Source: Methyloligella sp.
GTDB taxonomy: Bacteria > Pseudomonadota > Alphaproteobacteria > Rhizobiales > HXMU1428-3
Length of the DNA stretch: 47,877 nucleotides
Assembly: GCA_021604645.1 (NCBI GenBank)
Contig: BQJJ01000016.1
Location: 1-47,877 of the forward strand
Direction: 5' to 3'
Each line of letters opens with the position of its first letter. Positions within the stretch are counted from its first letter, which is position 1. A program made the position numbers and the translations under genes. This document shows, in pieces, positions 1,195 through 30,427 of the stretch. The notes beneath the pieces are model-generated. The model was not told the origin of the DNA, searched no databases, and saw only the letters and a program-made list of their open reading frames with translations.

Positions 1195-1293
1195 GATGAA
1201 TTTATAGGCATTTAAAGAGGTGGTTGTTAATAGGCAAGCTAAAGGACCACTAAAAATTCCAGTTGTTAATAAGCAATCTGAAGGAACACTAAG
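1195..1293 (+). repeat. Three copies of a dispersed ~33-bp element upstream of dusB
   Basis: Two full-length copies lie at 1222-1254 and 1261-1293 (39 bp period, 7 differences over about 40 bp when flanks are included). A degraded copy sits at about 1195-1221. Both full copies contain GTTGTTAATA followed by AGGCAAGCTAAAGG or AAGCAATCTGAAGG and an ACCACTAA/ACACTAA end. They align without gaps to copies at 3600, 3640, 12404 and 30316. The hairpin arms are poor in these copies, so they look like older or diverged members. Confidence 0.75.
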
Positions 1294-1300
1294 AATACCA

Positions 1301-1339
1301 GCCTCCATAGGAGGCATAATATACAAAGGGGGCAGCCCC
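1301..1339 (+). promoter_or_regulatory. Two small hairpins in the dusB leader
   Basis: GCCTCC (1301-1306) pairs perfectly with GGAGGC (1310-1315) across a 3-nt ATA loop, and GGGG (1329-1332) pairs with CCCC (1336-1339) across CAG. Both lie 17-55 nt before the dusB start. The first hairpin buries a strong Shine-Dalgarno-like GGAGG that has no usable start codon at the right distance, since the dusB frame is stopped at 1317. A role in dusB expression is inference only. Confidence 0.4.
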
Positions 1340-1355
1340 AAAATACAAGAAAACG

Positions 1356-2351
1356 GTGGGTATGAACGATAAAGCTATAAAAATTGGTAACTTTAACCTA
1401 AGCGGTAAGGCGATTTTAGCGCCAATGTCTGGGGTTACCGATTTTCCTTTTCGAAAATTAGCCCATCAATGGGGCGCTCCGTTAGTCGTTTCTGAAATGG
1501 TGGCTAGCGAAAGCCTTGTTAATGCAAACAAAGATATGAGCCGCCGTGCCATTGGTGAGCACTTAGCCCCCTTCGTAATCCAGTTAGCTGGCAGAAAAGC
1601 ATTTTGGATGGCAGAAGCTGCCAAAAGAGTGGAAGACCTTGGCGCTGATATAATCGATATCAATATGGGCTGCCCTGCAAAACAAGTTACAAAAGGACTA
1701 TCCGGTTCAGCGCTAATGCGCGACCTTGATCACGCCCTTACCTTAATTGAGGCCGTCGTCAACGCCACAACAAAACCGGTGACCTTGAAAATGCGACTTG
1801 GATGGGATGACAGTACTATCAATTCACCGGAACTTGCCAAAAGGGCCGAAGACGCCGGCGTGCAGGCCTTCACTGTACATGGTCGAACCAGACAACAATT
1901 TTATAAAGGTCAAGCAGACTGGTCAAAAGTAAAAGCCGTCAAAGAAGCCATCTCAAAACCTCTTTTTGTAAATGGAGACATCTGCACACTAGAAGATGCA
2001 AAAGCTGCAATGGCAGCCTCTAAAGCTGATGGCGTAATGATAGGAAGAGGAGCATATGGTGCCCCTTGGCTCCCAGCGCAAATGTCAAGAGAACTGAATG
2101 GCCAAGAACCTTTAAAGCCATCTCTTGTCGAGTATAAAAATTGCGTTCTCGAACATTATGACCACATGCTTAGTCACTACGGCAAAAAGTTTGGCGTCAA
2201 GAGCGCACGCAAACATTTGGTTTGGTATGTCGATCATTTTGAAAAAAACGAAATAGAAGCCAAACAATGGAGACAAAAACTTTGCTCCACAGAGAACATC
2301 ACCGATGTCACTAAACACCTCAATTCATTTTTTGAAGAAAGAGAGTGCTGA
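1356..2351 (+). CDS. dusB: tRNA-dihydrouridine synthase, DusB type
   Basis: FMN-dependent enzyme that reduces uridine to dihydrouridine in the D-loop of tRNA. The TIM-barrel start APMSGVTDFPFRKLA is at residues 22-36. The active-site segment DINMGCPAKQVTK carries the catalytic Cys106. The FMN-phosphate region FVNGDICTLEDA and GRGAYGAPW follow. At 331 residues it has normal family length. The start is uncertain: GTG at 1356 or ATG at 1362, neither with a good ribosome-binding site. It is the first gene of the dusB-ntrBC string and ends 81 bp before ntrB. This position upstream of ntrB resembles the dus-fis and nifR3-ntrB arrangements known in proteobacteria. Confidence 0.95.
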   Translation: MGMNDKAIKIGNFNLSGKAILAPMSGVTDFPFRKLAHQWGAPLVVSEMVASESLVNANKDMSRRAIGEHLAPFVIQLAGRKAFWMAEAAKRVEDLGADIIDINMGCPAKQVTKGLSGSALMRDLDHALTLIEAVVNATTKPVTLKMRLGWDDSTINSPELAKRAEDAGVQAFTVHGRTRQQFYKGQADWSKVKAVKEAISKPLFVNGDICTLEDAKAAMAASKADGVMIGRGAYGAPWLPAQMSRELNGQEPLKPSLVEYKNCVLEHYDHMLSHYGKKFGVKSARKHLVWYVDHFEKNEIEAKQWRQKLCSTENITDVTKHLNSFFEEREC

Positions 2352-2392
2352 GTAAAATTAAAAAATAAAAAAACATCAAAATAAATTTTCAA

Positions 2393-2427
2393 GCAGGACA
2401 CTATAAAACAGGACTTTTAAGCAGGAC
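2393..2427 (+). repeat. Triple GCAGGAC motif before ntrB
   Basis: GCAGGAC occurs at 2393-2399 and 2421-2427, with ACAGGAC at 2408-2414, so the copies are 15 and 13 bp apart. The last copy supplies the AGGA that serves as ntrB's ribosome-binding site, 7 nt before its ATG. The others could be spare translation-initiation sites or remains of a local duplication. No function is shown. Confidence 0.45.
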
Positions 2428-2432
2428 TAGGG

Positions 2433-3578
2433 ATGGATAACAATCAAATACTAAATGCAGTTCCCCACCCCATCATTGTGATCAATGATGAAAACGACAT
2501 TACTTATGCGAATGCAGCAGCTGAGTTGTTCTATCACTCGGGCCTTGAGCTACTAAAGAAAAGCAAAATTGATGACCTTCTTCCTTTTGGCTGTCCCATC
2601 CTGACGGCCATAGATCAAGTGCGACACAAATCCTGCAGCTACAATGAATATGGCATCAATATCGCCACACCAAAATTAAAAGAAAATTACATTGTTGATG
2701 TGTTTTGCGGGCCAATTGGGGAGAGCACAACCAACAAAACAAACAATAACAGCACCGCACGCTCAAATCACATTCTCATTCAATTTCAACTTCGTTCAAT
2801 GGCGCAAATGATTGAGAGACAAATAAGCTATAGAGGGGCTGCTAAAACAGTGAACGGCGTCGCAGCTGTCCTAGCTCACGAAATTAAAAACCCACTATCA
2901 GGCATCCGAGGTGCGGCACAGCTACTAGAAATGGCGGTCACAGAAGATGACCAAATGCTAGCCCGTCTAATTTGCGAAGAAACAGACCGCATAAGAAAAC
3001 TAGTAGACCGTATGGAAATATTTGGTGATGAACGCCCAATTCAATCAATTCCAATTAATATCCACTCAGTCCTCCATCACGTAACCGAGATTGCAAAAAA
3101 TGGTTTTGCCAGCAAAGTACAAATCGAACAAAATTACGATCCAAGTTTGCCAAAAGTCGCTGGTGAGAGAGACTTCCTCATCCAGCTCTATTTAAACTTA
3201 ATAAAAAATGCTGCTGAAGCCTTAGAAGACAGAGACGATGGAGTTATAACACTAGAAACCTCCTTCCGCCCTGGCTTCAGACTGACATTACCAGGCACAA
3301 AAGAACGCGTCATTCTCCCATTAGAAATTGTCGTCAAAGATAATGGACCAGGTGTCAGAGAAGATATCCTACCTCATTTATTTGACCCATTTGTCTCGAG
3401 CAAAGCAAAGGGATCAGGTCTCGGCCTCGCTCTCGTTGCTAAAATGATTGCAGATCATGGCGGAACAATTGAATGCGAGAGCAGTGAAAGCGGAACCATC
3501 TTCCGAACAAGATTACCCATTGCGGAAACAGACGACATAAATGAAACCAAAACGATAGAGCAACACACGCAAGTATGA
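2433..3578 (+). CDS. ntrB: Nitrogen regulation sensor kinase NtrB
   Basis: Cytoplasmic histidine kinase/phosphatase that controls NtrC in response to nitrogen status through PII. There are no membrane segments. A PAS domain occupies about residues 1-115. The dimerisation/phosphoacceptor helix carries AHEIKNPLSGIRGAAQ with phosphorylatable His149. The ATPase domain has N-box LNLIKNAAEAL (N255/N259), G1 box DNGPG (303-307), LFDPFVSSK and G2 box GSGLGL (327-332). Length (381) is normal. A short loop rich in Asn/Thr (99-112) follows the PAS domain. The ATG at 2433 has AGGA 7 nt upstream. It is followed after 109 bp by ntrC, with two copies of the dispersed repeat in the gap. Confidence 0.96.
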   Translation: MDNNQILNAVPHPIIVINDENDITYANAAAELFYHSGLELLKKSKIDDLLPFGCPILTAIDQVRHKSCSYNEYGINIATPKLKENYIVDVFCGPIGESTTNKTNNNSTARSNHILIQFQLRSMAQMIERQISYRGAAKTVNGVAAVLAHEIKNPLSGIRGAAQLLEMAVTEDDQMLARLICEETDRIRKLVDRMEIFGDERPIQSIPINIHSVLHHVTEIAKNGFASKVQIEQNYDPSLPKVAGERDFLIQLYLNLIKNAAEALEDRDDGVITLETSFRPGFRLTLPGTKERVILPLEIVVKDNGPGVREDILPHLFDPFVSSKAKGSGLGLALVAKMIADHGGTIECESSESGTIFRTRLPIAETDDINETKTIEQHTQV

Positions 3579-3599
3579 ATTCGTTTTTGGAAATAGCTC

Positions 3600-3672
3600 G
3601 GTTGGTGGTCGGCAACCTGAAGCGCAACTAAATTAGTGCGGTTGCTTGTGGGCAACCTGGAGCACAACTAAA
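3600..3672 (+). repeat. Pair of dispersed 33-bp elements between ntrB and ntrC
   Basis: Copies at 3600-3632 and 3640-3672 differ at 5 of 33 positions and repeat with a 40-bp period. These are the best-formed members of the family. In the second, GGTTGC (3640-3645) and GCAACC (3652-3657) form a perfect 6-bp stem with a 6-nt loop. In the first, GGTTG and CAACC pair across 8 nt. Both then carry CTGAAGCGCAACTAA or CTGGAGCACAACTAA. The second copy ends 15 nt before the ntrC ATG, so it would sit in the ntrC translation-initiation region of an ntrBC transcript. Confidence 0.8.
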
Positions 3673-3687
3673 ATGAGGAAATAGGCA

Positions 3688-5127
3688 ATGCCCAATAATG
3701 AAATATTAATTGCAGATGATGATGCCGCCATTCGCACCGTACTCACACAAGCGTTAAGCAGAGCCGGCTATTCTCCTCGAGCAACAAGTAACGCAGCAAC
3801 ACTTTGGCGCTGGGCTGAAGCTGGTGATGGTGACCTCATCATAACGGATGTAGTCATGCCAGACGAAAATGCCTTTAATCTCATCCCCCAAATCAAAAAA
3901 CAGCGCCCAGAACTTCCTATCATCGTTATGAGCGCTGAAAACACCATCATGACAGCAATCAAAGCATCAGAAAAAGGTGCCTTTGACTACCTGCCCAAAC
4001 CTTTTGATTTAACCGAATTAATGAATGTCATCGAGCGGGCCCTGGAAGAACCCGCAAAACCAAATATCAAAAATGTCGTTGAAGAAGATAATGAGCAATT
4101 ACCACTGATTGGTCGTTCAATTGCCATGCAAGATATTTATCGCATTATCGCACGCGTAATGAAAACAGATCTTTCAGTTATGATACGAGGTGAAAGTGGG
4201 ACCGGTAAAGAATTGGTAGCAAGAGCCTTACATGACTTTTCCAACCGAGTTGCCGGGCCATTTGTTGCCATCAATATGGCGGCTATCCCAAGAGAGTTAA
4301 TCGAAAGCGAATTATTTGGCCACGAAAAAGGGGCCTTTACCGGGGCCCAGGGCCGCCATATAGGCCGTTTTGAGCAAGCTGAAGGTGGTACATTATTTCT
4401 CGACGAAATAGGCGACATGCCCCTCGAAGCTCAAACTAGATTATTGAGGGTTCTCCAGGAAGGGGAATACACCAGGGTTGGCGGACGCGTCCCTATTAAA
4501 ACAAACGTAAGAATTGTTGCCGCCACTCACAGAGATTTACAAAAACTCATCCTTGCCGGAACGTTCCGAGAAGACCTTTACTACAGATTAAACGTGGTCC
4601 CAATTAAAGTCCCTCCATTAAGATCAAGGCTTGATGATATATCTGACCTAGCTCACCATTTCTTACGCAAAGCTGAAGAGCAGGGCTTGCCAGTTAAACG
4701 TTTTGAAGCTGATGCGATTAAGCGCATGCAAAACTATCAATGGCCTGGCAATGTGCGCGAATTAGAAAACTTTGTACAACGCATTACCGCTCTGCACCCA
4801 GAGGAGGTCATTACAAAAGTCGTGGTGGAAGAAGAACTTTCAAGTTCAATTTCTCCCTCAGAACCAGTAATGAAAGAAGAAAAATCCTTACCCGGGTTTG
4901 TAGCTAACCATCTGCAAAATTATTTTACCACATTTGGCGCAGATCTTCCCCCACCAGGTCTCTATGATCGTGTGATAAAAGAAGTGGAAAAGCCCCTTAT
5001 TCTGGCCGCATTGGCAGCGACAAATGGCAACCAAATTAAAGCTTCTGACCTCCTTGGTATTAATAGAAATACCTTGAGAAAAAAAATCAGAGATCTGGAT
5101 ATACAATTTCATCCAATTCGTCACTAA
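3688..5127 (+). CDS. ntrC: Nitrogen regulator NtrC, sigma-54 activator
   Basis: Response regulator that activates sigma-54 promoters under nitrogen limitation when phosphorylated by NtrB. The receiver domain (1-120) has the acidic pocket ADDD at 9-12 and phospho-acceptor Asp54. The AAA+ domain has Walker A GESGTGKE (168-175), an intact sigma-54-contacting GAFTGA loop (215-220) and Walker [11 protein letters not shown] (234-243). A C-terminal Fis-type helix-turn-helix ends with [12 protein letters not shown]. Length (479) is typical. The ATG at 3688 follows GAGGAAA. A terminator 35 nt after the stop separates it from ntrY. Confidence 0.97.
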
Positions 5128-5162
5128 ACAGTCACATAGCAACGACAAATTACATTTTGTAG

Positions 5163-10836: not shown

Positions 10837-12309
10837 ATGAACGGCCATGCACTAGGATATATATATGGATGGGGCTTAGCACTCTTTTCGTTAACAGTTA
10901 TCCCCCCGCTCATCATAGCGCTTGCAAACAATGAAGCATTACCACTAGCCGCATTTTTAGTAACAGGCCTTGCATCCGGTTTCTTTGGCGGCTCACTCAT
11001 CATCGCCTTAAAAGGGCGTGAGATTGAAGTTTCCCGTAGAGAAAAAATTGTACTGGTAATTGGGCTTTGGACAACCTTTTGCCTGATTAGCGCTATCCCC
11101 TTTGAAGCATCAAACGCCATTCCAAGCCGATTAAACGCTATATTTGAAGCAACCTCAGGCCTCACCACAACAGGGGCCACCCTCATTGAGCAAATATCCA
11201 ATTTGCCGCAATCCATCATCTATTGGCGCGCACAGCTGCAGTGGGTAGGCGGCTTCATGACCCTCTTTACAATCACCTACGCATTGGTCCGTTTCATGGG
11301 CGCTGAGCGTGTAACAAAAGAAATATACAAAACATCAAGTTCACCAAATGATGAAAAGTTACACCTCTTCACAACCCTTAGATTAATCTTACCTATCTAT
11401 TTAGGCTTAACCGTCACCTTGTTACTAGCACTGTTATTGACAGGAATACCCATTTTCGATGCCGTCTGTCTCACTCTCTCAACGGTCTCAACCGGCGGTT
11501 TTATGCCAAGAGATGGTGCGCTCTCCACATATGGAAACATCAACATATTATGGATCATGAGCATCTTTATGTTTCTTGGAAGTGTCAGCATTCTTTGGGT
11601 CAGCTATCTTGTCAAACACGAATGGTCAAACTTAAAAAAATTCAGTGAGCCTTTATGGGTCGGCGGCTCGATGTTGGCCCTAACACTGGTTATGGTCTTG
11701 CTTAAACTAACCTTCGATGACGGACGAGAGTTCTCTGCCATAACCAAAGAAACAACAACAGCGCTTATGAACGCTGTCTCCTTAATTTCTACAACAGGCT
11801 TTGCCGCAAGCACATATAGCTTCGAGCATATCTCTCCAGCCATAGCCATCATCTTAATGTTAATCGGGGGCGGCGTCCTCTCAACAGCTGGTGGTGTTAA
11901 ATTCACACGAATTATAATGATGTTTCGTCAATCAAATAGAGAGCTTCGCTCACTAATCTATCCCCATGAAGTTCGCCCGCTTTATTTAAGCAATGAAAAT
12001 AAAGACCATCTGTTTATCTCAACCGTCTGGGTGACCTTTGGCCTAACCATATTGGTCATCTCTTTGTTAGCTGCCATTCTATCATTTCACGGTATGGGAT
12101 TAGAAGAAGCCTTCTTTGCAGCCACAGGCGTTATATCAAATTGCGGAGCCTGCTATCAACAAATGTCATTTGTTCACCTAACAGAGACCATTCCATTAAT
12201 TGAAATCGCCAAAACAGCAAAAATCGCCATGATCATCGGAATGATTATAGGTAGACTCGAAATACTTATCATAATAAGCCTCTTCAATATCTCCTTCTGG
12301 AGGCATTAA
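10837..12309 (+). CDS. trkH: Trk potassium channel subunit TrkH
   Basis: Integral membrane potassium-uptake channel of the SKT superfamily, working with TrkA. The four pore-loop repeats are all visible: EATSGLTTTGAT (P1), TLSTVSTGGFMP (P2), VSLISTTGFAAS (P3) and AATGVISNCGAC (P4), each with the selectivity-filter glycine. About ten hydrophobic membrane segments surround them. The protein has 490 residues, normal for TrkH. The ATG at 10837 lies in an A-rich context with only a weak ribosome-binding site. The next gene, dat, starts 201 bp downstream after several hairpins, so transcription may end or attenuate there. Confidence 0.95.
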   Translation: MNGHALGYIYGWGLALFSLTVIPPLIIALANNEALPLAAFLVTGLASGFFGGSLIIALKGREIEVSRREKIVLVIGLWTTFCLISAIPFEASNAIPSRLNAIFEATSGLTTTGATLIEQISNLPQSIIYWRAQLQWVGGFMTLFTITYALVRFMGAERVTKEIYKTSSSPNDEKLHLFTTLRLILPIYLGLTVTLLLALLLTGIPIFDAVCLTLSTVSTGGFMPRDGALSTYGNINILWIMSIFMFLGSVSILWVSYLVKHEWSNLKKFSEPLWVGGSMLALTLVMVLLKLTFDDGREFSAITKETTTALMNAVSLISTTGFAASTYSFEHISPAIAIILMLIGGGVLSTAGGVKFTRIIMMFRQSNRELRSLIYPHEVRPLYLSNENKDHLFISTVWVTFGLTILVISLLAAILSFHGMGLEEAFFAATGVISNCGACYQQMSFVHLTETIPLIEIAKTAKIAMIIGMIIGRLEILIIISLFNISFWRH

Positions 12310-12364
12310 TCTAGGACAAGATTAGCAATGAATATTATTTCATACTAACTTTACGAAGAAGGAG

Positions 12365-12386
12365 TTCAGCCCCTTTTCGGGCTGAA
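12365..12386 (+). terminator. Hairpin after trkH (possible terminator/attenuator)
   Basis: TTCAGCCC (12365-12372) and GGGCTGAA (12379-12386) form a perfect 8-bp G+C-rich stem with loop CTTTTC, 56 nt after the trkH stop. No T run follows, so it is not a textbook intrinsic terminator. It may stabilise the trkH mRNA end or take part in an attenuator with the second hairpin at 12472. Confidence 0.45.
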
Positions 12387-12403
12387 GGACATGATGCCAG
12401 CGC

Positions 12404-12436
12404 GGTTTCATGTGGGTAATCTAAAGCGCATATAAA
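12404..12436 (+). repeat. Single copy of the dispersed 33-bp element upstream of dat
   Basis: It aligns without gaps to the copy at 3640-3672 with 24 of 33 identical positions, including the TGTGGG loop and the AAGCGCA tail. Its stem arms are poor (GGTT against AATC with one wobble). It is the only single copy found; the other loci have two or three. Confidence 0.65.
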
Positions 12437-12471
12437 ATAGCGTCCGTTGTTGGCACCGCCCCATCGGAGGC

Positions 12472-12490
12472 CTTTTGCTTTCAGCAAAAG
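12472..12490 (+). other. Hairpin in the dat leader
   Basis: CTTTTGCT (12472-12479) pairs perfectly with AGCAAAAG (12483-12490) across a 3-nt TTC loop, 20 nt before the dat ATG. The stem is upstream of the ribosome-binding AGAAAGAAG and does not cover it. It may be a leader structure for dat. Confidence 0.4.
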
Positions 12491-12510
12491 AATAGCCGTG
12501 AGAAAGAAGA

Positions 12511-13374
12511 ATGACTAGAACAATTTACGTCAATGGTTGCTATCAACCGTATAACAACGCACTGCTTCACGTAGAAGACAGAGCAACCCTCTTCGCAGAC
12601 GCTGTTTATGAAGTTGTTGAAGTAAAAGCAGGCAAACTTGTTGATCAAGACGCGCATCTAGAAAGATTGGAACGCTCTTTAAGTGAAATAAAACTGGTCA
12701 CGGATTTCTCAATTAAAACCATTCCGTTCATCATAAGAGAAAGCATTCGCCGAAACAGAGTGAAAAACGGCTATGTCTATATCCAAGTTTCAAGAGGCTC
12801 TGGTCAAAGAGATTTCATTTTCCCAAGTGCAAATGAAACACCAGCAACCCTCATCATATTTGCACGCTCTAAAAACCCGCTTAAACTTGATGAAAAATCA
12901 AAAAAAGGAATAAAAGTAATCACCCATCCAGATTTGAGATGGAAGCGGCCAGATATTAAAACCACAGGGTTATTGGCTAGTGTGTTAGCTCGTCAAACCG
13001 CCATTGAGCAAGGCGCTGAAGAAGCCTGGTTATACAATGAAGATAAATTCATCACAGAAGGGGCTGCAAGCAATGCATGGATAGTAACAAAGCAAAACGA
13101 ACTAATCACACATCCAGCCAATCAATCCATATTAAAGGGAATAACCCGTGAAGGCGTAATTCGTCTGACAAAAGAGCTAGATCTGACCTATATAGAACGC
13201 CCCTTCACAATTGAAGAAGCAAATGACGCAAAAGAAGCATTCATTACTGCGGCTACAAATTTAGTAATGCCAGTCACCCAAATTGACGAAAAATCTGTGT
13301 ATGATGGCAAATCAGGACCAATTTCTTTGAAATTAAGAGAAATATTCCATGAATTTGCCCAAATATCCTATTAA
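12511..13374 (+). CDS. dat: D-amino acid aminotransferase (class IV)
   Basis: PLP enzyme interconverting D-alanine and 2-oxoglutarate with pyruvate and D-glutamate, relevant to peptidoglycan precursors. Fold type IV signatures are present: N-terminal IYVNGCYQP, EDRATLFADAVYEVV, the PLP-lysine region RWKRPDIKTTGLLA with Lys150, and EEAWLYNEDKFITEGAASNAW, where Glu183 would contact the pyridine nitrogen. The C-terminal part keeps the ITAATNLVMPVTQID segment. Length (287) is as expected for Dat rather than the longer IlvE. The ATG at 12511 follows AGAAAGAAG. A dat-hfq-hflX order is familiar in rhizobia. The alternative is a branched-chain aminotransferase, which I think less likely. Confidence 0.88.
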   Translation: MTRTIYVNGCYQPYNNALLHVEDRATLFADAVYEVVEVKAGKLVDQDAHLERLERSLSEIKLVTDFSIKTIPFIIRESIRRNRVKNGYVYIQVSRGSGQRDFIFPSANETPATLIIFARSKNPLKLDEKSKKGIKVITHPDLRWKRPDIKTTGLLASVLARQTAIEQGAEEAWLYNEDKFITEGAASNAWIVTKQNELITHPANQSILKGITREGVIRLTKELDLTYIERPFTIEEANDAKEAFITAATNLVMPVTQIDEKSVYDGKSGPISLKLREIFHEFAQISY

Positions 13375-13385
13375 GCAAGGCTAAA

Positions 13386-13408
13386 TTCACAGAAAAAATC
13401 ACTGTGAA
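13386..13408 (+). terminator. Possible terminator hairpin after dat
   Basis: TTCACAG (13386-13392) pairs with CTGTGAA (13402-13408) across a 9-nt A-rich loop, 12 nt past the dat stop. It is followed by GGCTTTTC, a short T run. The following 190 bp up to hfq are A+T-rich and contain three imperfect TTTGAATAATAA-like repeats at about 13448-13521, with nothing else recognisable. Confidence 0.45.
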
Positions 13409-13596
13409 GGCTTTTCAAATCTCAAACATCAGAGATACTAAGCTAATGATTTGAATATAAGTTTTGAATAATAAACCTAAAGATATGAGTTTAGACAAAA
13501 GTAGTTTGAATAATAAAAATGGACAAAGAAATTTAAATCAAATTAATATTCTGTGTTCCTAAAGTAAATTGCCACAACAAATAAACGGAAAAAAAC

Positions 13597-13854
13597 ATGG
13601 CTAACGATAAAAATCAAAATCTACAGGACGCATTCTTAAACAATGTGAGAAAAAGCAAAACTCCACTTACAATCTTCTTAGTGAATGGAATAAAACTGCA
13701 AGGTGTGGTCACATGGTTTGACAATTTTTGTGTACTCTTACGCAGAGATGGTCATTCTCAACTGGTCTATAAACATGCCATTTCAACCATAATGCCAGGC
13801 CAGCCTGTTCAAATGTTTGAAGGTGAACCAACAGCTGAAGAAACAAACGAATAG
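13597..13854 (+). CDS. hfq: RNA chaperone Hfq
   Basis: Hexameric Sm-like protein that helps small RNAs pair with mRNAs. All family hallmarks are present: N-terminal [21 protein letters not shown], the Sm1 segment [23 protein letters not shown], and the Sm2 signature [12 protein letters not shown]. The last 12 residues are an acidic tail. At 85 residues it matches rhizobial Hfq proteins. ACGGAAAA lies just ahead of the ATG at 13597. Its neighbour hflX is the classic downstream partner in proteobacteria, here separated by 339 bp to the first canonical start codon. Confidence 0.98.
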
Positions 13855-14193
13855 CTGTTTCGTCGCATTTAAACAGGCGAAAAGACAAATATTCAGACCA
13901 TTAACAAGCCCCATAACTTAAGAAAAGCAACTTAAGTTTTGTGGCTGTGGATTTTATTTGGTCAATCCTCAATCATATGCTTAAATTTAATCTGCACAAA
14001 TACAAACCATTCTTTTATCTGATCAACACCCCCAAAAAAAGGGTAAGGTCCTCACTTATAAGCGAGCAATAAAATAACCAGCACAAGAGAGAACAAAAGT
14101 CCCCAATCTAAGAACCAAGTTTCTAAAAAGAAGGGACAGAACAATCATACCGTTCAATTTCAAATCGAAGAAGAACCAGCTGTACAAACAACG
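13855..14193 (+). other. hfq-hflX intergenic region with an unresolved hflX start
   Basis: It contains the hairpin at 13908-13945, a short ACCC/GGGT stem around 14026-14043, and, from 14062 on, sequence that is open in the hflX frame back to a TAA at 14059-14061. That open stretch (44 codons) includes TVQFQIEEEPAVQTTLLAPYD, which aligns to where HflX proteins begin, yet it has no ATG, GTG or TTG. A good AAGAAGGGA ribosome-binding-like sequence at 14128-14136 has no canonical in-frame start behind it. Confidence 0.6.
13908..13945 (+). terminator. Long hairpin after hfq
   Basis: A 15-bp stem with two mismatches (13908-13922 against 13931-13945; arms GCCCCATAACTTAAG and CTTAAGTTTTGTGGC) closes an 8-nt loop. 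It lies 54 nt after the hfq stop, with the loosely T-rich ATTTTATTTG after it. A smaller stem (CTGTTT/AAACAG, about 13855-13877) overlaps the hfq end. Together they look like the hfq mRNA 3' end, so hflX may have its own promoter in 13946-14060. Confidence 0.6.
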
Positions 14194-15528
14194 TTGCTCG
14201 CCCCTTACGATAATAAAAAATCCAAGTCAAAATCAGCCGAACTAGATCCAAGACCGATCGAAGACCGCATGGAAGAAGCGCTGGGTCTAGCAGAGGCCAT
14301 CGAACTTGAAGTCAATGCGTCGATTGCAGTTCCGTTAGAGACCATCCGTTCAGCAACTCTTTTCGGCCAAGGCAAGGTCGAAGAGCTAAAACAAATCATC
14401 CATGACAATCACTCAGAACTCGTAGTCATTGATCATAGCCTAAGCCCTGGACAGCAAAGAAACCTGGAAAGGGAATGGGATGTAAAAATACTTGATCGTA
14501 CAGGTCTCATTCTTGAAATCTTTGGCCGCCGTGCCGCCACAAGAGAAGGACGTTTACAAGTTGATCTAGCTCACCTTAATTACCAAAAATCTCGCCTTGT
14601 TCGCTCCTGGACACACCTAGAGCGACAAAGAGGTGGTCAAGGCTTCATGGGCGGACCAGGTGAAACGCAGTTAGAAGCTGATAAACGCCAACTTCAAACT
14701 AGAATTATGAGTCTCACAAAAGAGCTGGAGAAGGTCAAAAAAACCAGGGATCTACACCGCAAAAAACGCAAACAAATCCCATATCCAATCATCGCTCTCG
14801 TTGGATATACAAACGCTGGCAAATCAACACTCTTTAACCTCTTAACCGGCGCGGATGTTATGGCAAAAGATCAGCTCTTTGCCACACTAGATCCAACTAT
14901 GCGTTCGATCCTCTTACCATCTGGCGCAAAAGTCATCATGTCTGACACAGTTGGTTTTGTCTCAAACCTGCCAACGCAGCTCGTTGCAGCCTTCAGAGCA
15001 ACCTTGGAAGAAGTTCTTGAGGCCAACATCATTCTTCACGTTCAAGATGCCTCTAACCCCAGCAGAGACCAACAGCGTGTCGATGTCATTAAAATCTTAA
15101 AAGAATTGGGCATCAAAGAAGAAGAAGACAGCGCCCCCATTTTTGAAGTGTGGAATAAAATCGATCAAATCCCTCAAATGAATGAAGAGACTGATAAAGA
15201 GACCCATACAGAGATAGGCCAGGACTTTATACAAGACGCACCATCATCATCCGCTTCAAAATGCGATGACACAACCCCATTTCTTATCTCAGCCAAAACA
15301 GGAGAGGGCATAGATCAACTTCTGGAAGCGCTTGACAAACAACTCGAAGAACATGAGATCAGCTTAGAATTAAAGTTAAAAGCAACTGAAGGCATGATCG
15401 TCAATTGGCTTTACGAAAATGGTCAGGTCACACAAGGCGAGACTAATAATACAGGAGAAACTGAATATTCAGTCACACTCCCCAAACGCCTCGCCGGCCG
15501 CCTAGAAAAAATGCTAAGTACAAACTAA
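14194..15528 (+). CDS. hflX: Ribosome-associated GTPase HflX
   Basis: GTPase that binds and splits stalled or heat-damaged ribosomes. The N-terminal HflX domain has SATLFGQGKVEELK, VVIDHSLSPGQQRNLE, DRTGLILEIFGRRA and the family signature RGGQGFMGGPGETQLEADKR. The G domain has G1 GYTNAGKST (from about residue 204), G3 DTVGF, G4 NKID and G5 SAKTG. Between G4 and G5 there is an unusually acidic insertion of about 40 residues. TTG at 14194 is the first canonical start, but the frame and family-like sequence continue upstream, so the true N-terminus is probably up to about 40 residues longer and may use a rare start codon. Confidence 0.92.
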   Translation: MLAPYDNKKSKSKSAELDPRPIEDRMEEALGLAEAIELEVNASIAVPLETIRSATLFGQGKVEELKQIIHDNHSELVVIDHSLSPGQQRNLEREWDVKILDRTGLILEIFGRRAATREGRLQVDLAHLNYQKSRLVRSWTHLERQRGGQGFMGGPGETQLEADKRQLQTRIMSLTKELEKVKKTRDLHRKKRKQIPYPIIALVGYTNAGKSTLFNLLTGADVMAKDQLFATLDPTMRSILLPSGAKVIMSDTVGFVSNLPTQLVAAFRATLEEVLEANIILHVQDASNPSRDQQRVDVIKILKELGIKEEEDSAPIFEVWNKIDQIPQMNEETDKETHTEIGQDFIQDAPSSSASKCDDTTPFLISAKTGEGIDQLLEALDKQLEEHEISLELKLKATEGMIVNWLYENGQVTQGETNNTGETEYSVTLPKRLAGRLEKMLSTN

Positions 15529-15547
15529 AAACTGGAGCACTAGGTTT

Positions 15548-16435
15548 ATGAAAATGTTAAAGAATAAAACTTGTATTTTTCAAATGTTCATAGCCTGGTT
15601 CTTCTTAAGCAGCGTGTTTATTCTACCCCTAAACGCCAAAGAAATCCTCACAGCAAAAAAATTTAGCAATCGCTATCTAGAGCTTGTAAAAAAACAGCAC
15701 CCAAATATTAAAGTAAAGCGTCTCGATGCTCTTGGTTTTAAATTCACCAGCACCAAAACAGGAGAATTCAAAGCCTTTTTGGATAATGCTTACCGCGAAT
15801 ATAAAAATTCCCCAGATCAAATTACAAGCATCCTTCAACGATATGTAGACATAGCTTTTTCAGCAAACAAATTAACAAAGTTAGTACCTAAACGGGATCA
15901 AATCGTACCGCTCATCAGATCAATCGATTATATAAATCAAATCAAAAAACTAACTAAAAGTGCCAAAAAAGAAAACTCACTCATCTATAAAGAATTTGTC
16001 CCTGGGCTGGTTCTATTATACGCACTAGATAGTCCCAAATCAGTCAGAGCGATGGTAAATTCTGATTTGAACAAACTAAAAATTCACAACAAAGAATTGC
16101 TAGGACAAGCAACTAAAAACTTAAATAGAATTGTTTCTAATGGAATGAAACGTCAAGGAAAAGAAGGACTTTTCGCCGTAACAGCTGGCGGAACATTTGA
16201 ATCATCACTAGTTCTTCTTGATGACATCTGGAATAAAAAAAATTTTCCCGTAAAAGGAGATTTCGTCGTTTATATTCCAGCAAGAGATCAAATAATTGTC
16301 ACCGGGTCTAAAGATAAAAAGGGTTTAGCTGAAGCAGCTAAGTTTGCAAAAAAAGATTACCAAGTTGCACCAAGGCCTTTATTTAATAAGCCGCTCATTC
16401 GGCAAAATGGTAAATGGATAATCTATAAAAAATAA
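15548..16435 (+). CDS. Secreted DUF1444-like protein
   Basis: Protein of 295 residues with a signal peptide (basic start, hydrophobic core at about 10-27, LNAKE at the cut). The body resembles the DUF1444/UPF0354 family: a central LVPGLVLLYALDSPKSVRAMVNSD-like segment, a GGTFESSLVLLDDIW segment and a late DFVVYIPARDQIIVTGSKD segment. I recognise these motifs from memory only and am moderately sure. The biochemical role of the family is unknown to me. It is Lys-rich and starts 20 bp after hflX with a TGGAG ribosome-binding site, so the two are probably co-transcribed. Confidence 0.65.
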   Translation: MKMLKNKTCIFQMFIAWFFLSSVFILPLNAKEILTAKKFSNRYLELVKKQHPNIKVKRLDALGFKFTSTKTGEFKAFLDNAYREYKNSPDQITSILQRYVDIAFSANKLTKLVPKRDQIVPLIRSIDYINQIKKLTKSAKKENSLIYKEFVPGLVLLYALDSPKSVRAMVNSDLNKLKIHNKELLGQATKNLNRIVSNGMKRQGKEGLFAVTAGGTFESSLVLLDDIWNKKNFPVKGDFVVYIPARDQIIVTGSKDKKGLAEAAKFAKKDYQVAPRPLFNKPLIRQNGKWIIYKK

Positions 16436-16533: not shown

Positions 16534-17427
16534 TTACAAATGCGCTTCCTTTTTCATTGCCCCGGTTAAAAAATCAAGAAAACATTTCAGTTTCGTTGAG
16601 ACAAAACGGTTCTGAACATAAACCGCATGAATAGGCATTTTCTTCTTATAAGCGGGTAGAAGATGCACAAGTTCTCCCGTTTCTATATAAGGCATCACAA
16701 ACCAACGAGGCATCAAAGCAATACCAGCATCAGCTAAGAGCATGTCTAATAATCCAGTTGCATTATCACACTGAAAATTCCCCTGTACTTGTTGAGAAAC
16801 ACCAGGCACTGGCTCTGAAAAAGACCATCTATTCAGATCCGGTGAGAGGCTATAAATCATACAATTATGCCCCTCTAAATCTTTCAATTCGTTCGGCTCT
16901 GAATGCTTAGATAAATACTGAGAAGACGCTACAATAATAAGCTCATCCTGCCCCAGTAATCGGGCAATCATAGAGCTATCACTTAGTTGCCCAATTCGAA
17001 TAGCAACATCAACACCGTCTGCAACCAAATCCACCTTTCTCTCGCTCAGTAATAGTTCAAGAGAAATATCAGGGTATAAATCCAAAAACCTCGGAACAAG
17101 GGGAGATAAAAACAAACTTCCCATCATTAAGGGAGCTGAAACTCTCAAAAAACCCTTGGGAGATTTAACACCGCCAACAGCTTCACTTTCAGCTTCATCA
17201 AGTTCATTTAAGATAAAGCTAGCCCGCTCATAATAGCTCCGGCCAGCTTCAGTCAATTTATGCTCACGGCTTCCTCTAATAAGCAGCTGGGCACCTAAAT
17301 CTCCTTCAAGCGCAGAAACTCGTTTACTTATCGTGGCTTGTGTCGTGTTAAACTCTGCTGCTGTCGCAGAAAAACTGCCCGTCTCAACAACACGTACATA
17401 AGCCTTCATTGATTGTAATTTATCCAA
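16534..17427 (-). CDS. LysR-family transcriptional regulator
   Basis: Regulator of 297 residues. The N-terminal winged helix-turn-helix is canonical: MDKLQSMKAYVRVVETGSFSATA, then ATISKRVSALEGDLGAQLLIRGSREHKLTEAG. The C-terminal substrate-binding domain begins with KGFLRVSAPLMMGSLFLSPLVPRFLDLYPDI and resembles the aromatic/quinone-responsive regulators placed next to pirins. It is transcribed divergently from the pirin gene, the standard position for a LysR protein that controls its neighbour. The 113-bp gap between them contains a LysR-type palindrome. The effector is unknown; an electrophile or quinone is a guess from the neighbours. Confidence 0.93.
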   Translation of the reverse strand: MDKLQSMKAYVRVVETGSFSATAAEFNTTQATISKRVSALEGDLGAQLLIRGSREHKLTEAGRSYYERASFILNELDEAESEAVGGVKSPKGFLRVSAPLMMGSLFLSPLVPRFLDLYPDISLELLLSERKVDLVADGVDVAIRIGQLSDSSMIARLLGQDELIIVASSQYLSKHSEPNELKDLEGHNCMIYSLSPDLNRWSFSEPVPGVSQQVQGNFQCDNATGLLDMLLADAGIALMPRWFVMPYIETGELVHLLPAYKKKMPIHAVYVQNRFVSTKLKCFLDFLTGAMKKEAHL

Positions 17428-18242: not shown

Positions 18243-18785
18243 ATGAAAGTCACAGCATTTGGCGCAAGCACAAGTAAAAACTCAATCAATAAAGCCTTAG
18301 CAACTTACGCAGCTAACCTAACCGAAGCAGCAGAAATCAACATTCTAGATTTAAATGATTATGACAATCCCATTTTCAATGAAGATACAGAAAAACAAAT
18401 AGGAAAATCCGAAACCGCTCAAAATTTCATAGATGAAATTGCGTCGAGTGATCTTGTCATCATTTCATTTGCGGAGCATAATGGCACCTATACGGCCGCT
18501 TATAAAAATTTATTTGATTGGGCTTCACGAATTGAGCAAAAATTCTTTCACAACAAACCTATGATTTTTCTCTCTACTTCACCAGGGCCAGGAGGTGCCA
18601 AGAGCGTGCTAAACACAGCTGTAACATCAGCTCCATTCTTTGGAGCAAATCTTCAAGCAAGCCTCTCTATCCCAAGTTTTTATGATAATTTTGATCTAGA
18701 GAAAAACGAGCTCAGCAATCAAGAATTGAAATCAGAACTAAATGAATTAATAAGTAATTACAATTCGTTAACCAAACAAGCATGA
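18243..18785 (+). CDS. NAD(P)H-dependent FMN reductase family protein
   Basis: Flavodoxin-fold oxidoreductase of 180 residues. The N-terminal GASTSKNSINKAL loop would bind the FMN phosphate; AEHNGTYTAAYKNLFDW and STSPGPGGAKSVLN form the flavin-side loops typical of NADPH-dependent FMN or quinone reductases. It is cytoplasmic, with no signal or membrane segment. GTAGGAG precedes the ATG. It is co-transcribed with the pirin gene (15-bp gap). The pair under a LysR regulator suggests quinone or electrophile detoxification, which is inference from context. Confidence 0.88.
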   Translation: MKVTAFGASTSKNSINKALATYAANLTEAAEINILDLNDYDNPIFNEDTEKQIGKSETAQNFIDEIASSDLVIISFAEHNGTYTAAYKNLFDWASRIEQKFFHNKPMIFLSTSPGPGGAKSVLNTAVTSAPFFGANLQASLSIPSFYDNFDLEKNELSNQELKSELNELISNYNSLTKQA

Positions 18786-22474: not shown

Positions 22475-22918
22475 GAAAGAGCCTTTCTGTTTTAAATGAC
22501 ATGAACCAGTCCAATGCATAGCCTTCGACGAGCCCTGTGAAAGGCCCCAGCACTTTTTTAAAATTAATATGCTGACGCTTATGGCATCTAAAGCATAAGA
22601 AATATCAATTAAGCACAAATAAATCGTGTGGATGCTTTGTGGGCATCTGAAGCACAATTAAAAAGTCAAACTCGTATGGAGTGAAGACACCTAATAAGAA
22701 AACTTAAAAGTTCAGCCTTCAACTGTACTGATTCAAAAAAGGTTATATATGAGAAAAAAACAGAAAAAGCAAAGGAATTTTGCATAAAGATGACTGATCC
22801 AGGCAGTATTTTAGCTGGATTTCATCAAACAGGCATCAACTATCACTTGCTTTTTAGGTGGAGAGACGATTAATAGAGCAAAATTAAATTTAGTCGAACT
22901 TAAAATGGTAGGAATAAT
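22475..22918. other. Divergent intergenic region rpsF / fabD
   Basis: 444 bp holding the promoters of the ribosomal operon (minus) and of fabD (plus). Besides the repeat pair at 22572-22662, I see only A+T-rich sequence; GGTAGGA at about 22907-22913 is the fabD ribosome-binding site. No credible gene is present: the extension of the rpsF frame across this region encodes unrelated residues. Confidence 0.6.
22572..22662 (+). repeat. Two copies of the dispersed element between rpsF and fabD
   Basis: The full copy at 22630-22662 has a perfect GATGC/GCATC stem (22631-22635, 22643-22647) around TTTGTGG, then CTGAAGCACAATTAA. The shorter copy at about 22573-22602 has GACGC and GCATC arms (one mismatch, which is a G-T wobble on the minus strand) and CTAAAGCATAAG. 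Compared with the copy at 3640, the arm sequence has changed on both sides so pairing is kept. Confidence 0.75.
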
Positions 22919-23881: not shown

Positions 23882-23889
23882 TTAATATT

Positions 23890-25322: not shown

Positions 25323-25341
25323 GATTTAAGCATGATTGATG

Positions 25342-26906: not shown

Positions 26907-27144
26907 TTGCCTCAATATAACCAATTAAAGCCAAAATTTAAAATTGTCGAAAAATAGACTTATTTTTGGTCCTGACTAACAAAATGGGATAGAATATTAC
27001 ATCGGGCAGTTTTAAAAATTAATCACACTAAAATCATTGTTACAAAACAACTGGTATCTGTGCTAAATAAGCTGTCAGAAACATATCTAGAAGGTCATAT
27101 TAAACCTTCAGTCCAATACCCGTTAACAGAGTTAAGAGTAGGTC

Positions 27145-28590: not shown

Positions 28591-28715
28591 AAAAAATCGC
28601 AAAAAACTAGCCAAAGGTCTACCAATTGCCACCTTTTGACCCACCCAATTTGGGTTGAGTAAGTTCTATTCCAGCGGTACTCTTTAATAATAAAAAAGAG
28701 GGATAGAGATTAATA

Positions 28716-29606
28716 ATGCCGCTTAAAAGTATGACAGGCTTCTCAAGAGCAACCGGCTCTAATGAAGAGGCTCAATGGATAATTGAATTACGTTCGGTCA
28801 ATGGACGCGGCTTAGACATGAGAGTGCGCCTGCCTAATGGCATGGAAGCCCTTGATAGTGAGTTTCGCAAACAAATCTCAAACAAGCTCTCACGCGGCAA
28901 TATCACAGTTAATTTTAACATAAAGAAGCATCAGTCTGAAAGTTCCACAGAACTGAATAAAAATGCCTTTAATGACCTTCTAAAAGCCGCCAAGCAAGCG
29001 TCTGAAATATCTGGTCTCCCCATGCCAGACCTTGGAACCTTACTAACCTCACGTAACATTTTAAAAGAAGCTGAACGCCAAGAATCAGACGCCAAAACAA
29101 GAGAAATGCACACCCGCATTATGAAAAGTTTTAATGCAGCTCTTGATGACCTAGTTAAGGCAAGAAAAGCTGAAGGAATAGAACTGGGGCAAACGATTAA
29201 AGACCGCTTGGCAACCATAAAAAAACTAACTGAAGAAGCTGATAAATTAGAAGAAAGAAAACCTGAGGCTATTAAAGAACGCCTGAAGCAATCCATAAAT
29301 CATCTGATTGATCAACAAATCCAAGAACTCGATGAAAACCGCCTTCACCAAGAAGCTATGCTAATAGCAACCCGCATAGATATCGCGGAAGAACTAGATC
29401 GTATTAAAGCTCATGTTGCTCAGGCTGAAGAATTACTAGAAAAAAATGATCCCGTTGGTCGAAGATTTGACTTCCTTTGTCAAGAATTTAACCGTGAAGC
29501 TAATACTATCTGCTCGAAAGCAAGCGTAAAAAAATTGACTTATATTGGTTTGGAATTAAAAACCATTATAGATCAATTGCGAGAGCAGGTACAAAATATT
29601 GAATAA
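28716..29606 (+). CDS. yicC: YicC-family endoribonuclease
   Basis: Member of the YicC/YloC family; recent work on E. coli YicC describes an endoribonuclease. Family start LKSMTGFSRATG is at residues 3-14 and the C-terminal signature is GRRFDFLCQEFNREANTICSKA followed by the helical end LKTIIDQLREQVQNIE. A long helical middle (about 110-210) joins them. Length (296) is normal. AGAGGGATAGAG lies before the ATG. The stop overlaps the gmk start by 8 bp, so expression is coupled to guanylate kinase, the usual partner. Confidence 0.94.
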   Translation: MPLKSMTGFSRATGSNEEAQWIIELRSVNGRGLDMRVRLPNGMEALDSEFRKQISNKLSRGNITVNFNIKKHQSESSTELNKNAFNDLLKAAKQASEISGLPMPDLGTLLTSRNILKEAERQESDAKTREMHTRIMKSFNAALDDLVKARKAEGIELGQTIKDRLATIKKLTEEADKLEERKPEAIKERLKQSINHLIDQQIQELDENRLHQEAMLIATRIDIAEELDRIKAHVAQAEELLEKNDPVGRRFDFLCQEFNREANTICSKASVKKLTYIGLELKTIIDQLREQVQNIE

Positions 29607-30255
29607 AACATACACCAATTCAAAAGACATCGAACGTAGAGGGTTAATGTATGTACTCTCATCACCCTCAGGCGCTGGAAAAACATCAATTGCCACAAAA
29701 CTAATCGACCAAGATAAAAACATCGATATGTCGATTTCCATGACAACAAGAAAAGCACGTCCTGGCGAGATTGACGGCAAAGACTATATTTTTGTAAACG
29801 AAGACCAATTTAACAAAGCCATTGAAAACAACGAGCTTCTTGAATGGGCCGAAGTGTTTGGCAATTTTTATGGCACTCCAAGAAAAGCTGTTGAGCAAAA
29901 ATTAGAAAATGGACAAGATGTTCTGTTCGACATTGATTGGCAAGGAACGCAGCAACTCCATGAAAAGGTCGGAAAAGACCTTGTGAGGCTTTTTATTCTC
30001 CCTCCATCAGTTAAAGTCCTGGAAGACCGTTTAAAACGGCGGGGCCAAGACGAAGACCATATTGTTGCTGCCCGCATGAAAGAGGCCGCGAACCAAATCA
30101 GTCATTGGGCAGAATATGATTATGTCATCATCAATGAAAACCTGGATGAGAGCCTGGGTGAAGTGCAAAACATACTTAACGCTGAAAGACTAAAACGAGA
30201 AAGACGTGTTGGTCTATCAGCCTTTGTAAGAAACATGACAACCAAAATGGAATAA
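29599..30255 (+). CDS. gmk: Guanylate kinase
   Basis: Phosphorylates GMP to GDP with ATP. The P-loop SSPSGAGKTS follows RRGLMYVL. The GMP-binding region has SMTTRKARPGEIDGKDYIFV, WAEVFGNFYGTP and VLFDIDWQGTQQL, and the lid segment is KRRGQDE. I use the TTG start at 29599 inside yicC, because alphaproteobacterial Gmk proteins often carry an ERRGLM-type extension. An ATG at 29647 would give a protein 16 residues shorter with AGAGGG only 3 nt ahead. Length is 218, or 202 with the later start. Confidence 0.96.
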   Translation: MNKTYTNSKDIERRGLMYVLSSPSGAGKTSIATKLIDQDKNIDMSISMTTRKARPGEIDGKDYIFVNEDQFNKAIENNELLEWAEVFGNFYGTPRKAVEQKLENGQDVLFDIDWQGTQQLHEKVGKDLVRLFILPPSVKVLEDRLKRRGQDEDHIVAARMKEAANQISHWAEYDYVIINENLDESLGEVQNILNAERLKRERRVGLSAFVRNMTTKME

Positions 30256-30315
30256 AAGCCTCAGGCACAATAAACAGTATATAGATGGCGGTTGAGCTTA
30301 TGCGGATGCTCGCTC

Positions 30316-30370
30316 GGTTTCTGGTAGGCAACCTGAAGGGCCACCAAAAGATTGAATATCTGAAGCACAA
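30316..30370 (+). repeat. Dispersed element downstream of gmk
   Basis: A full-length copy at 30316-30348 contains CTGGTAGGCAACCTGAAG and matches the dusB-leader copies in its GGCCACCAAAA end. A right-half-only copy (ATCTGAAGCACAAAA) follows at 30358-30372, offset by 27 bp, the same offset as between the partial and first full copy before dusB. It lies between the convergent gmk and peroxiredoxin genes, so it cannot be a promoter of either. Confidence 0.65.
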
Positions 30371-30427
30371 AAAAGGACCGCCCATTTACATATGAGCAGT
30401 CCTAAAAAACAATCAAATAGATGAAGT

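Follow-up and report, generated by a model that had tools for sequence, protein, structure and literature searches.

The window analysed here, 47,877 nucleotides of a contig from Methyloligella sp. (BQJJ01000016.1), carries a 33-bp unit again and again in the same orientation outside genes, which raises the question of what this unit is and what sets its orientation. An earlier note made from the letters alone had placed seven copies of it at 1222, 1261, 3600, 3640, 12404, 22630 and 30316, all on the plus strand, and our search bore this out, since with a matrix built from all seven the copies of the unit (named E) scored 32.9 to 44.8 bits versus 12.4 bits for the best non-copy. With a matrix of six copies, the left-out E ranked 4th to 7th of ~95,700 positions on both strands (20.6 to 39.4 bits), so that no non-copy stood above any E copy. 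The copies do lie outside genes, no likely gene of the window being overlapped; the only frame reached into is that of rpsF, in its TTG-started extension, which is probably non-coding because the Pfam S6 domain starts only at residue 65 of this frame. The tandem pairs are direct, and the offsets of 39 and 40 bp given for neighbouring copies are correct.

E is a bulged hairpin, GYGC-GGTTGC-loop-GCAACC-TGAA-GCRC-nACTAAAA, which with its A-rich 3' tail spans ~40 bp. Bit scores of E in the window and in the locus comparison come from a covariance model with correct pairing (R2). Of the seven copies, those at 1222 and 1261 have a weak hairpin. By R2, the copy at 3634..3676 is a complete two-stem hairpin, GTGC-GGTTGC...GCAACC-TGGA-GCAC, with zero non-standard pairs, and two positions are marked as non-standard pairs in the copy at 30310..30352. 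That the unit is a defined hairpin, and that the copy at 12404 sits inside a larger element, M (12353-12506), had gone unnoticed. The shorter copies seen earlier at about 1195, 22573 and 30358 gave no R2 match at an E-value of ≤1; to the eye they resemble decayed remnants, without statistical support. The features of the window are as follows.

1216..1258, plus strand: E copy (unit 1222-1254) in the divergent gap ispD/dus; R2 41.0 bits
1259..1297, plus strand: E copy with a weak stem (unit 1261-1293), +39 bp from its tandem partner; R2 22.6 bits, E-value 4e-4
3594..3633, plus strand: E copy (unit 3600-3632) between an ntrB-like kinase and an ntrC-like regulator; R2 41.9 bits
3634..3676, plus strand: E copy (unit 3640-3672), +40 bp from its tandem partner; R2 62.1 bits
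12353..12506, plus strand: M element (mosaic, multi-hairpin) in the trkH/aminotransferase gap, with the layout ACGAAGAAGGAG-hp1-GGACATG-P2-P3-mini hairpin-P4-AATAGCCGTGAGA; pattern match at 12355-12393, consensus fold from 24 other copies
12398..12440, plus strand: E copy (unit 12404-12436) in the P2 apical loop of M, GATGCC[E]GCGTC (loop by eye); R2 48.3 bits
22568..22600, plus strand: possible decayed E remnant, by eye only; absent from R2 matches at an E-value of ≤1
22624..22666, plus strand: E copy of the GATGC/GCATC stem subtype (unit 22630-22662) in the divergent gap rpsF/fabD-like; R2 40.7 bits
30310..30352, plus strand: E copy with the outer stem GCTC/GGGC (unit 30316-30348) in the convergent gap gmk/AhpC-family; R2 50.3 bits
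30353..30380, plus strand: possible decayed E remnant, by eye only; absent from R2 matches at an E-value of ≤1

Genome-wide, the copy number proved to be above chance: an E pattern matched 118 places in the genome of the window (G000) versus none in the reversed control, and across 93 genomes from outside the genus its counts were no higher than in controls. Profile matches numbered at least 161 in G000 and, among seven congeners (including G001 to G007), at least 147 each in G002, G003 and G006, with at least 165 in G002; E was scarce in G001 (3 matches) and G004 (23), and the M pattern gave none in G005 and G007. These E copy numbers are lower bounds, 150 of 2,506 first-look candidates having been scored in G000 and likewise 150 per congener, and the counts made with our first model (copy number, strand tallies of the profile matches, and the E matches of the gene-context count) are in effect sequence-profile searches in which pairing is not scored. 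E, M and a third module, Q, form a genus-specific family of small hairpin repeats of which E is the smallest member, its structured members being 33 to 210 bp long. An M start lies ≤120 bp upstream in 11 of 12 Q.

The structure of M covaries over about a hundred copies in each of two genomes; the pairing tallies use 95 of 96 pattern copies in one set and 100 of 102 in the other, and the sets share orthologous copies. Read on the plus strand, hp1 of M has more G.T than A.C pairs in both sets (21 versus 5 and 21 versus 9), and the folding energy of M shows no strand difference (p = 0.34). The same RNA strand test on E gave 32 G.T versus 25 A.C in the 88 of 100 copies kept, under a rule (at least 6 of 10 pairs, G.T counted as paired) that leans towards G.T; the folding energy of E is slightly lower on the plus strand (32 of 47, p = 4e-4). 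At eight sites shared between genomes, the stem types of M differ by eye at seven; at two of the eight the identity of M is no lower than that of both flanks, and at a third hardly lower.

E is seated in the apical loops of M, and its placements differ at one orthologous M. Among the M copies whose sequence was examined, 20 E insertions were found in 19 of 46 distinct copies, assigned by eye to the P2 loop (3), the P3 loop (3), the mini-hairpin loop (2) and the P4 apical region (12), although the majority of the P4 cases may be one amplified composite and not separate insertions. At the M of the trkH gap, E occupies P2 in the window versus different loops in G002, where a reversed E lies in hp1 (28.4 bits) and an E in P4 (21.1 bits). 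The corresponding M of L035 (L numbers denote the genome stretches examined) has by eye an E-like hairpin at P4, which R2 did not find at an E-value of ≤1; an R2 match at 17226 lies directly behind this M.

Copy number within E arrays also changes between relatives. The ntrB/ntrC gap has two copies in the window versus four in G002, in exact 40-bp steps, and none was found there in L035, L031, L032 and L034. BLAST of the ntrBC loci of five relatives revealed empty sites, with a divergence too high to define a junction. Blocks of 129 to 374 bp were present in one genome and absent from the other, and 14 of 30 well-flanked gaps were flagged as having E- or M-like letters, at least one of them (L129:4399, 18 bp) falsely by eye. 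The proposal of an active or recent family is supported as far as signs of turnover and mobility go, and not supported as regards a linked RAYT-type transposase (see below). Neither the seating of E in M loops, nor the covariation of M with stem types differing between genomes, nor the orientation by replication described next had been noticed earlier.

The common orientation over 29 kb noted at first is real and no local accident, being a replication-polar property of the chromosome. Per contig, 118 of 125 E sites lie on the majority strand, as do all but a few of the profile matches in the stretches examined (88/96 in G000 and 78/83 in G002). Neighbouring copies share a strand in 94 of 106 E pairs and 65 of 68 M pairs in G000 (150 of the 161 E places), and in 43 of 43 E pairs (best 64 of at least 165 copies) and 77 of 80 M pairs in G002, in which contigs with this polarity reach 1.16 Mb. 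The majority strands of E and M coincide on 18/18 contigs of G000, 11/11 of G002 and 16/19 of G006, the E positions of the last being a list merged from pattern and profile matches. All 12 Q follow the polarity.

This majority strand was plus where the third-position GC skew, corrected for gene strand, was negative, and minus where it was positive, in 37 of 41 stretches (this measure replaced the raw GC skew per 20 kb, which was noisy); the skew was near zero or mixed in L127, L128, L129 and L146. The 16S gene is opposite to the majority strand of the elements in both of the genomes, of three, in which it was found. With the G-rich and 16S strand taken as leading, the reverse complement of E and M thus lies on the lagging-strand template. 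The polarity is ~90 to 98%. Eight of 93 site clusters run against it and one more is mixed-strand; among profile matches, the exceptions are 8 of 96 in G000 and 5 of 83 in G002, the latter weaker copies in L164, L165 and L177 that fall outside the 43/43. Strong copies also occur against the polarity, at L145:9083 (62.9 bits) and L134:12771 (58.3 bits), and strong copies in L135 and L138 oppose the contig orientation.

Genes do not account for this orientation. The gene-context count took 114 of 145 E matches (≥29.2 bits) and M by pattern, with a home-made gene caller and L159 to L161 left out; many G000 and G002 stretches are homologous, so sites common to both count twice. Where coding sequence makes up 77.5%, 97 of 100 site clusters were intergenic, a habit like that of mobile elements. 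A family that is dispersed, often paired and mostly intergenic is thus supported. In the 90 of 97 intergenic sites classed by having a gene on both sides, gaps whose genes read along the element held 21 sites over 151 gaps and those reading against it 30 over 223, a near-equal frequency that makes orientation independent of flanking gene direction; convergent gaps held 34 sites over 90 and divergent gaps 5 over 78. E and M are thus strongly oriented by replication, not by genes.

Searches for a mobilising enzyme found no Y1 transposase (PF01797, E-value ≤0.001) in any of the seven congeners, of which G003 is only 78% complete. The genome of the window has two Y1 genes, which lie by eye amid a different repeat, AATTACGGTGACAGT; the closest match resembling E lies 3 kb away and is weak (19.9 bits). 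The RAYT link is therefore not supported. A reverse transcriptase or group II route was rejected as well, with PF00078 absent from G000 and G002 and found once in G006.

The reading that we favour, at about even chances, is that E, M and Q are non-autonomous mobile hairpin modules coupled to the replication fork. They would move or be copied via single-stranded intermediates at the fork, and if donor and target were both exposed on the lagging-strand side, a new copy would take a single polarity. Hairpin loops would be favoured landing places, the tandem arrays of 39 to 40 bp would stem from local slippage, and stems would be shuffled by exchange between dispersed copies. Recombineering, group II introns, Okazaki primers and ssDNA transposition are the background to this argument. 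Several observations count against it: no mobilising enzyme was found, the polarity has exceptions that include strong copies, E lacks a clear G.T preference, M is strand-neutral in energy, and M is no less identical than its flanks at two of eight shared sites. The G.T excess in hp1 of M implies that any ssDNA that folds is the non-template strand, or that RNA acts. Polarity may also be selected and not made at insertion, which counts against it too.

This last alternative, which we consider rather unlikely, holds that E, M and Q are oriented chromosome signals, wrongly oriented copies being purged by selection; candidate roles are translocase loading or steering, replication restart or priming, and barriers to head-on transcription. 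It would fit the strong polarity, the upkeep of M structure through covariation in about a hundred copies in each of two genomes, and the occupation of eight M sites in both genomes despite stem types differing at seven. Against it stand the rarity of E in G001 and G004 and the lack of M pattern matches in G005 and G007. Known polar signals (KOPS, Chi and AIMS), moreover, are sequence motifs of ~8 bp found also within genes; the modules here share their strong replication polarity but are structured, 33 to 210 bp long and mostly intergenic. AIMS is given as 8 bp long (PMC5993296). Enrichment in convergent gaps and avoidance of divergent ones also resemble a tolerated parasite, the same argument being made for BOX in part of PMC3049150.

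Spread without a dedicated transposase is unlikely in our judgement: copies of E, M and Q, made of structured RNA or ssDNA, would be captured on the lagging-strand template exposed at forks, the RNA as accidental Okazaki primers copied later. The sense strand would then be the nascent lagging strand, matching the observed polarity. Such capture would agree with the excess of RNA-type wobble pairs in M, with the hairpin loops of existing copies as preferred landings.

We regard it as decidedly unlikely that these are REP elements belonging to a Y1 HUH (RAYT/IS200-IS605) system, with a transposase that is lost or rare in the genus. Size, bulged hairpins, intergenic habit, clustering and more than 100 copies recall REP, BIME and REPIN, and Y1 enzymes, as a section of PMC6006769 describes for IS200/IS605, act on the lagging-strand template, where the reverse complement of E and M lies; such action, in small derivatives as well, would yield polar insertions. 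However, no Y1 gene was found in any of the seven congeners though G002, G003 and G006 are rich in E, the two Y1 genes of the window's genome have no good E adjoining, the pairs are direct and not inverted doublets, and the modules have variable stem sequences, are nested and follow replication. A GT[AG]G foot, not a constant feature, gives an ambiguous picture: the reverse strand of E has a conserved 5' TTTAGTn, giving GTGG only if n is G and then overlapping the foot, and the plus strand at the hairpin foot is mostly [CT]AG. A partial precedent for replication polarity is Pseudomonas fluorescens SBW25, whose tandem REP arrays are described in an excerpt of PMC3116915 as pointing forward near ~2 Mb but in reverse near ~4 Mb.

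Cis-acting mRNA elements (riboswitch, leader or terminator) in tandem copies are a very improbable explanation. The covarying helices of M and the G.T excess in hp1 favour them, whereas orientation ignores flanking genes, divergent gaps hold few sites, the five E sites of the window adjoin unrelated genes, and the window had no Rfam match at the gathering score or at an E-value of ≤0.5. In an M-rich 5-kb stretch of L129, only sub-threshold sraA and S15-leader matches appeared, off its listed M copies. The common RNA module suggested earlier is thus disfavoured in its gene-tied form, and the RNA-type wobble in M leaves an RNA role open. Genes are often co-oriented with replication, so polarity might be an artefact of gene-strand bias or contig choice, but this is hardly credible given the nearly equal frequency in gaps along and against the element, the same-strand pairs of the second genome on contigs of up to 1.16 Mb, and a polarity opposite to 16S and the G-rich strand.

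Another of the closest known families is BOX of Streptococcus pneumoniae (boxA-boxB(n)-boxC), described in the relevant part of PMC3049150 as a mosaic small repeat whose short central module varies in number. It is predicted to form hairpins in which this central module folds largely on its own. The same part reports BOX as enriched between convergent genes, and BOX, RUP and SPRITE as lying on the leading strand in 60.8, 60.9 and 63.3% of cases, mirroring coding bias. By comparison with that description, the polarity of E and M is far stronger, gene-independent and on the other strand. E does vary in copy number and sit inside M, but it occupies several alternative M loops and occurs outside M as well. 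In the portions of the literature that our search reached, no replication-polar small-repeat family was found described.

The orientation by replication suggests that the replication fork, and not the neighbouring genes, is the route by which E and M spread or are retained. Small interspersed repeats are common in bacteria and mostly unexplained, and their mode of spread is seldom visible. If the polarity is selected, the family would act as a signal that orients the chromosome, and its structure would make it an unusual one. A loop-nested family with hundreds of replication-oriented copies puts the cause at the fork, and fork-coupled spread of single strands could be tested by comparing close strains.

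The seven 33-bp copies of the unit E that the earlier note had placed on one strand in five intergenic regions were all found there, and in leave-one-out scoring each copy left out ranked 4th to 7th of ~95,700 window positions, below other copies only. The three shorter copies claimed alongside them gave no covariance-model match at an E value of ≤1. The E-bearing gaps, all with flanks backed by Pfam, and the larger mosaic multi-hairpin element (M) of the window are listed below:

Gap between IspD and Dus
Gap between a PAS/HisKA kinase and a sigma-54 response regulator (ntrB/ntrC-like)
Gap between TrkH and a class IV aminotransferase
Gap between S6 and an acyl transferase (fabD-like)
Gap between guanylate kinase and an AhpC-family protein
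12353 to 12506, M element

An alignment of 30 copies resolved E as a two-part hairpin with a GYGC/GCRC outer stem, a GGTTGC/GCAACC inner stem, and a 6-nt loop, in which a TGAA bulge separates the two 3' arms and nACTAAAA forms a conserved single-stranded tail. Subtypes differ on both sides of the inner stem (GGTTGC/GCAACC versus GGATGC/GCATCT) and of the outer stem (C-G, T-A, or G-C). The unit that looks mobile measures about 40 bp, from AGYGC through CTAAAA, and tandem arrays likewise have a period of ~40 bp.

Many E copies are surrounded by M, which has the layout ACGAAGAAGGAG-hp1-GGACATG-P2-P3-CCTCGGAGG-P4-AATAGCCGTGAGAGAAA (hp1 to P4 being hairpins) and measures ~110 to 120 bp when empty. 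The consensus fold of 24 empty copies (RNAalifold) has 32 pairs, and for 19 of these one or more copies have both partners changed. Arms of hp1 from the same copy were Watson-Crick at 622 of 665 positions in the own genome (G000) versus 391 with arms dealt among copies (500 shuffles; sd 15, maximum 438), and at 651 of 700 versus 412 (sd 14, maximum 465) in the congener G002. A third hairpin module, Q (AAGATCAGCCYGAACGGAGC...GCTGATCGCAAAAA), had 12 matches in the stretches examined (L128 to L178; e.g., L129:8629 and L175:17866), 11 of them with an M start ≤120 bp upstream. L129 also has, at 18602 to 18711, a match to the ribosomal S15 leader that falls short of the gathering threshold (22.7 bits versus 39.5).

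Nesting took the form of 20 E insertions spread over 19 of 46 distinct M copies in the stretches examined. By eye, their seats were the loops of P2 (3), P3 (3), and the mini-hairpin (2) and the apical region of P4 (12), and the 3' arm of an E-bearing P4 was often absent. At the trkH gap, the M of the window has an E within P2 (48.3 bits); the orthologous M of G002 has a reversed E within hp1 (28.4 bits), an E within P4 (21.1 bits), and, by eye, a Q within P3, and that of another relative (L035) has by eye an E-like hairpin at P4, with no model match. An E-like hairpin, TGGACCGG...AGGTCCATTAAAAA, lies directly behind this M in G002 (L160:16424-16466) and in L035 (17226 to 17268); the window (at 12511 and upstream) is without it.

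The dispersed family suspected from the window extends across the genome well above chance: the pattern GGCAACCTGAAGCNCAACTAAA (≤3 mismatches) occurred at 118 places in the own genome versus 0 for the reversed pattern used as control, and a profile search gave at least 161 matches. Among 101 genomes, 13 had a pattern match and high counts were confined to the genus (own genome, 118; G002, 138; G006, 106; G003, 55; G007, 18; G005, 5; G004, 4; G001, 0); outside it, 6 of 93 genomes had one match each, not above the reversed control there. The M pattern, GAAGAAGGAGN{12,32}GACATG, matched the own genome at 96 places and G002 at 102, whereas the controls gave none; outside the genus (53 genomes examined), no genome had more than one match. 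Within the genus, G001 has 3 profile matches to E and G002 at least 165; numbers are high in G002, G003, and G006 versus low in G001 and G004. Since G005 and G007 have E and no pattern-detected M, E seems to be the older or the more widely distributed of the two. The nearest named records are Hyphomicrobiales MAGs (NtrB 95% identical over the best segment). E/M-type repeats were seen at contig starts or ends (G000:C9:21-61, G000:C11:21-61, and the contig end of L033); assembly may therefore break there, and fragmented assemblies may undercount the copies.

Placement outside genes, also claimed from the window, held for 97 of 100 site clusters in 788 kb of G000 and G002 (partly homologous and so not fully independent; 77.5% coding). 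Element orientation is not a gene effect. Gaps whose genes read along the element (21 sites in 151 gaps) or against it (30 in 223) were occupied at nearly equal rates; convergent gaps held 34 sites in 90, and divergent gaps 5 in 78. Sites opposing the polarity numbered 8 of 93, plus one mixed cluster; judged from the homologous blocks, three pairs of these (L134/L164, L135/L165, and L129/L177) each resemble a single site present in both genomes.

On each contig most E copies share one strand, and this contig-majority strand carried 118 of 125 E sites; when all E matches in the stretches were counted, the shares were 88 of 96 for G000 and 78 of 83 for G002. Strong opposing copies do occur (e.g., in L134, L135, L138, and L145). 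Among the copies listed, neighbors shared a strand in 94 of 106 E and 65 of 68 M pairs in the own genome, 77 of 80 M pairs in G002 (E, 43 of 43 among the best 64 of at least 165 copies), 10 of 11 E and 8 of 9 M pairs in G006, and 5 of 5 E pairs in G007, and E and M had the same majority strand on 18 of 18 (G000), 11 of 11 (G002), and 16 of 19 (G006) contigs. Q followed the replication polarity in 12 of 12 matches. Third-position GC skew, computed separately for genes of each strand, agreed in sign with the expectation set by the contig-majority strand for 37 of 41 stretches, the exceptions (L127, L128, L129, and L146) being near zero or mixed. Its size in G000 and G002 fell into two classes, ~0.3 to 0.4 and ~0.05 to 0.15, which might mean that one part of the chromosome differs in replication or rearrangement. 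The 16S rRNA gene opposes the listed E and M on G002 C1 (except one M and some weaker E) and, at the contig end, on G000 C18; none was found in G004. The rRNA and G-rich strand is usually taken as leading; on this assumption the elements face the replication fork head-on, and the template of the lagging strand carries their reverse complement.

Turnover was judged on homologous G000 and G002 stretches, in blocks 75 to 98% identical. The ntrB/ntrC arrays differ by two exact 40-bp units, and a second array differs by a single 33-bp unit. Between recognizable flanks, E/M blocks (129 to 374 bp) are present or absent, gains and losses pooled. The ntrB/ntrC gap lacks the element in four relatives (L031, L032, L034, and L035); in L033 the contig ends at the gap. 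The two genomes share 8 M sites, and by eye stem types differ at 7 of them; at these seven, M identity is 0.69 to 0.85 and the flanks are mostly at 0.83 to 0.99 (one upstream flank, 0.69). For 6 of the 8 shared sites the identity of M was lower than that of either flank, in one case by just 0.01 to 0.02. We infer exchange among dispersed copies as the simplest account of these differing stems.

We propose polar insertion via single-stranded intermediates at the replication fork, which would explain the orientation, the loop nesting, and the indifference to genes. In hp1 of M, G.T exceeded A.C on the plus strand (21 versus 5, P = 0.0025, in the own genome; 21 versus 9, P = 0.04, in G002), which suggests RNA or the other DNA strand and argues against the simplest single-stranded DNA version; neither E pairs nor M folding energies showed a clear preference of this kind. 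Selection keeping one orientation would also account for the polarity, but leaves the rarity in some congeners and the convergent-gap habit unexplained. The linked RAYT-type transposase gene that the earlier note suggested looking for was not supported, as a Y1 gene was found in 0 of 7 congeners and the two of the own genome are surrounded by another repeat. These Y1/RAYT-type genes (224 and 221 aa; L127, i.e., G000:C1:1-20000, at 11340 to 15720) lie amid the short repeat AATTACGGTGACAGT, behind a large gene (2,410 aa) named adhesin-like by eye. No reverse transcriptase was found in G000 or G002.

Among known repeats, BOX, RUP, and SPRITE of pneumococcus are described as enriched in convergent gaps and as having 60.8 to 63.3% of their copies on the leading strand, a share that parallels the coding bias (PMC3049150). 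REPs are described as linked to RAYTs and as arranged for the most part in inverted doublets (PMC3116915, PMC6006769). Compared with BOX, the E/M/Q family is alike in habit and unlike in polarity and nesting. We file it as a new variety of small interspersed mosaic repeats, outside both BOX and REP.
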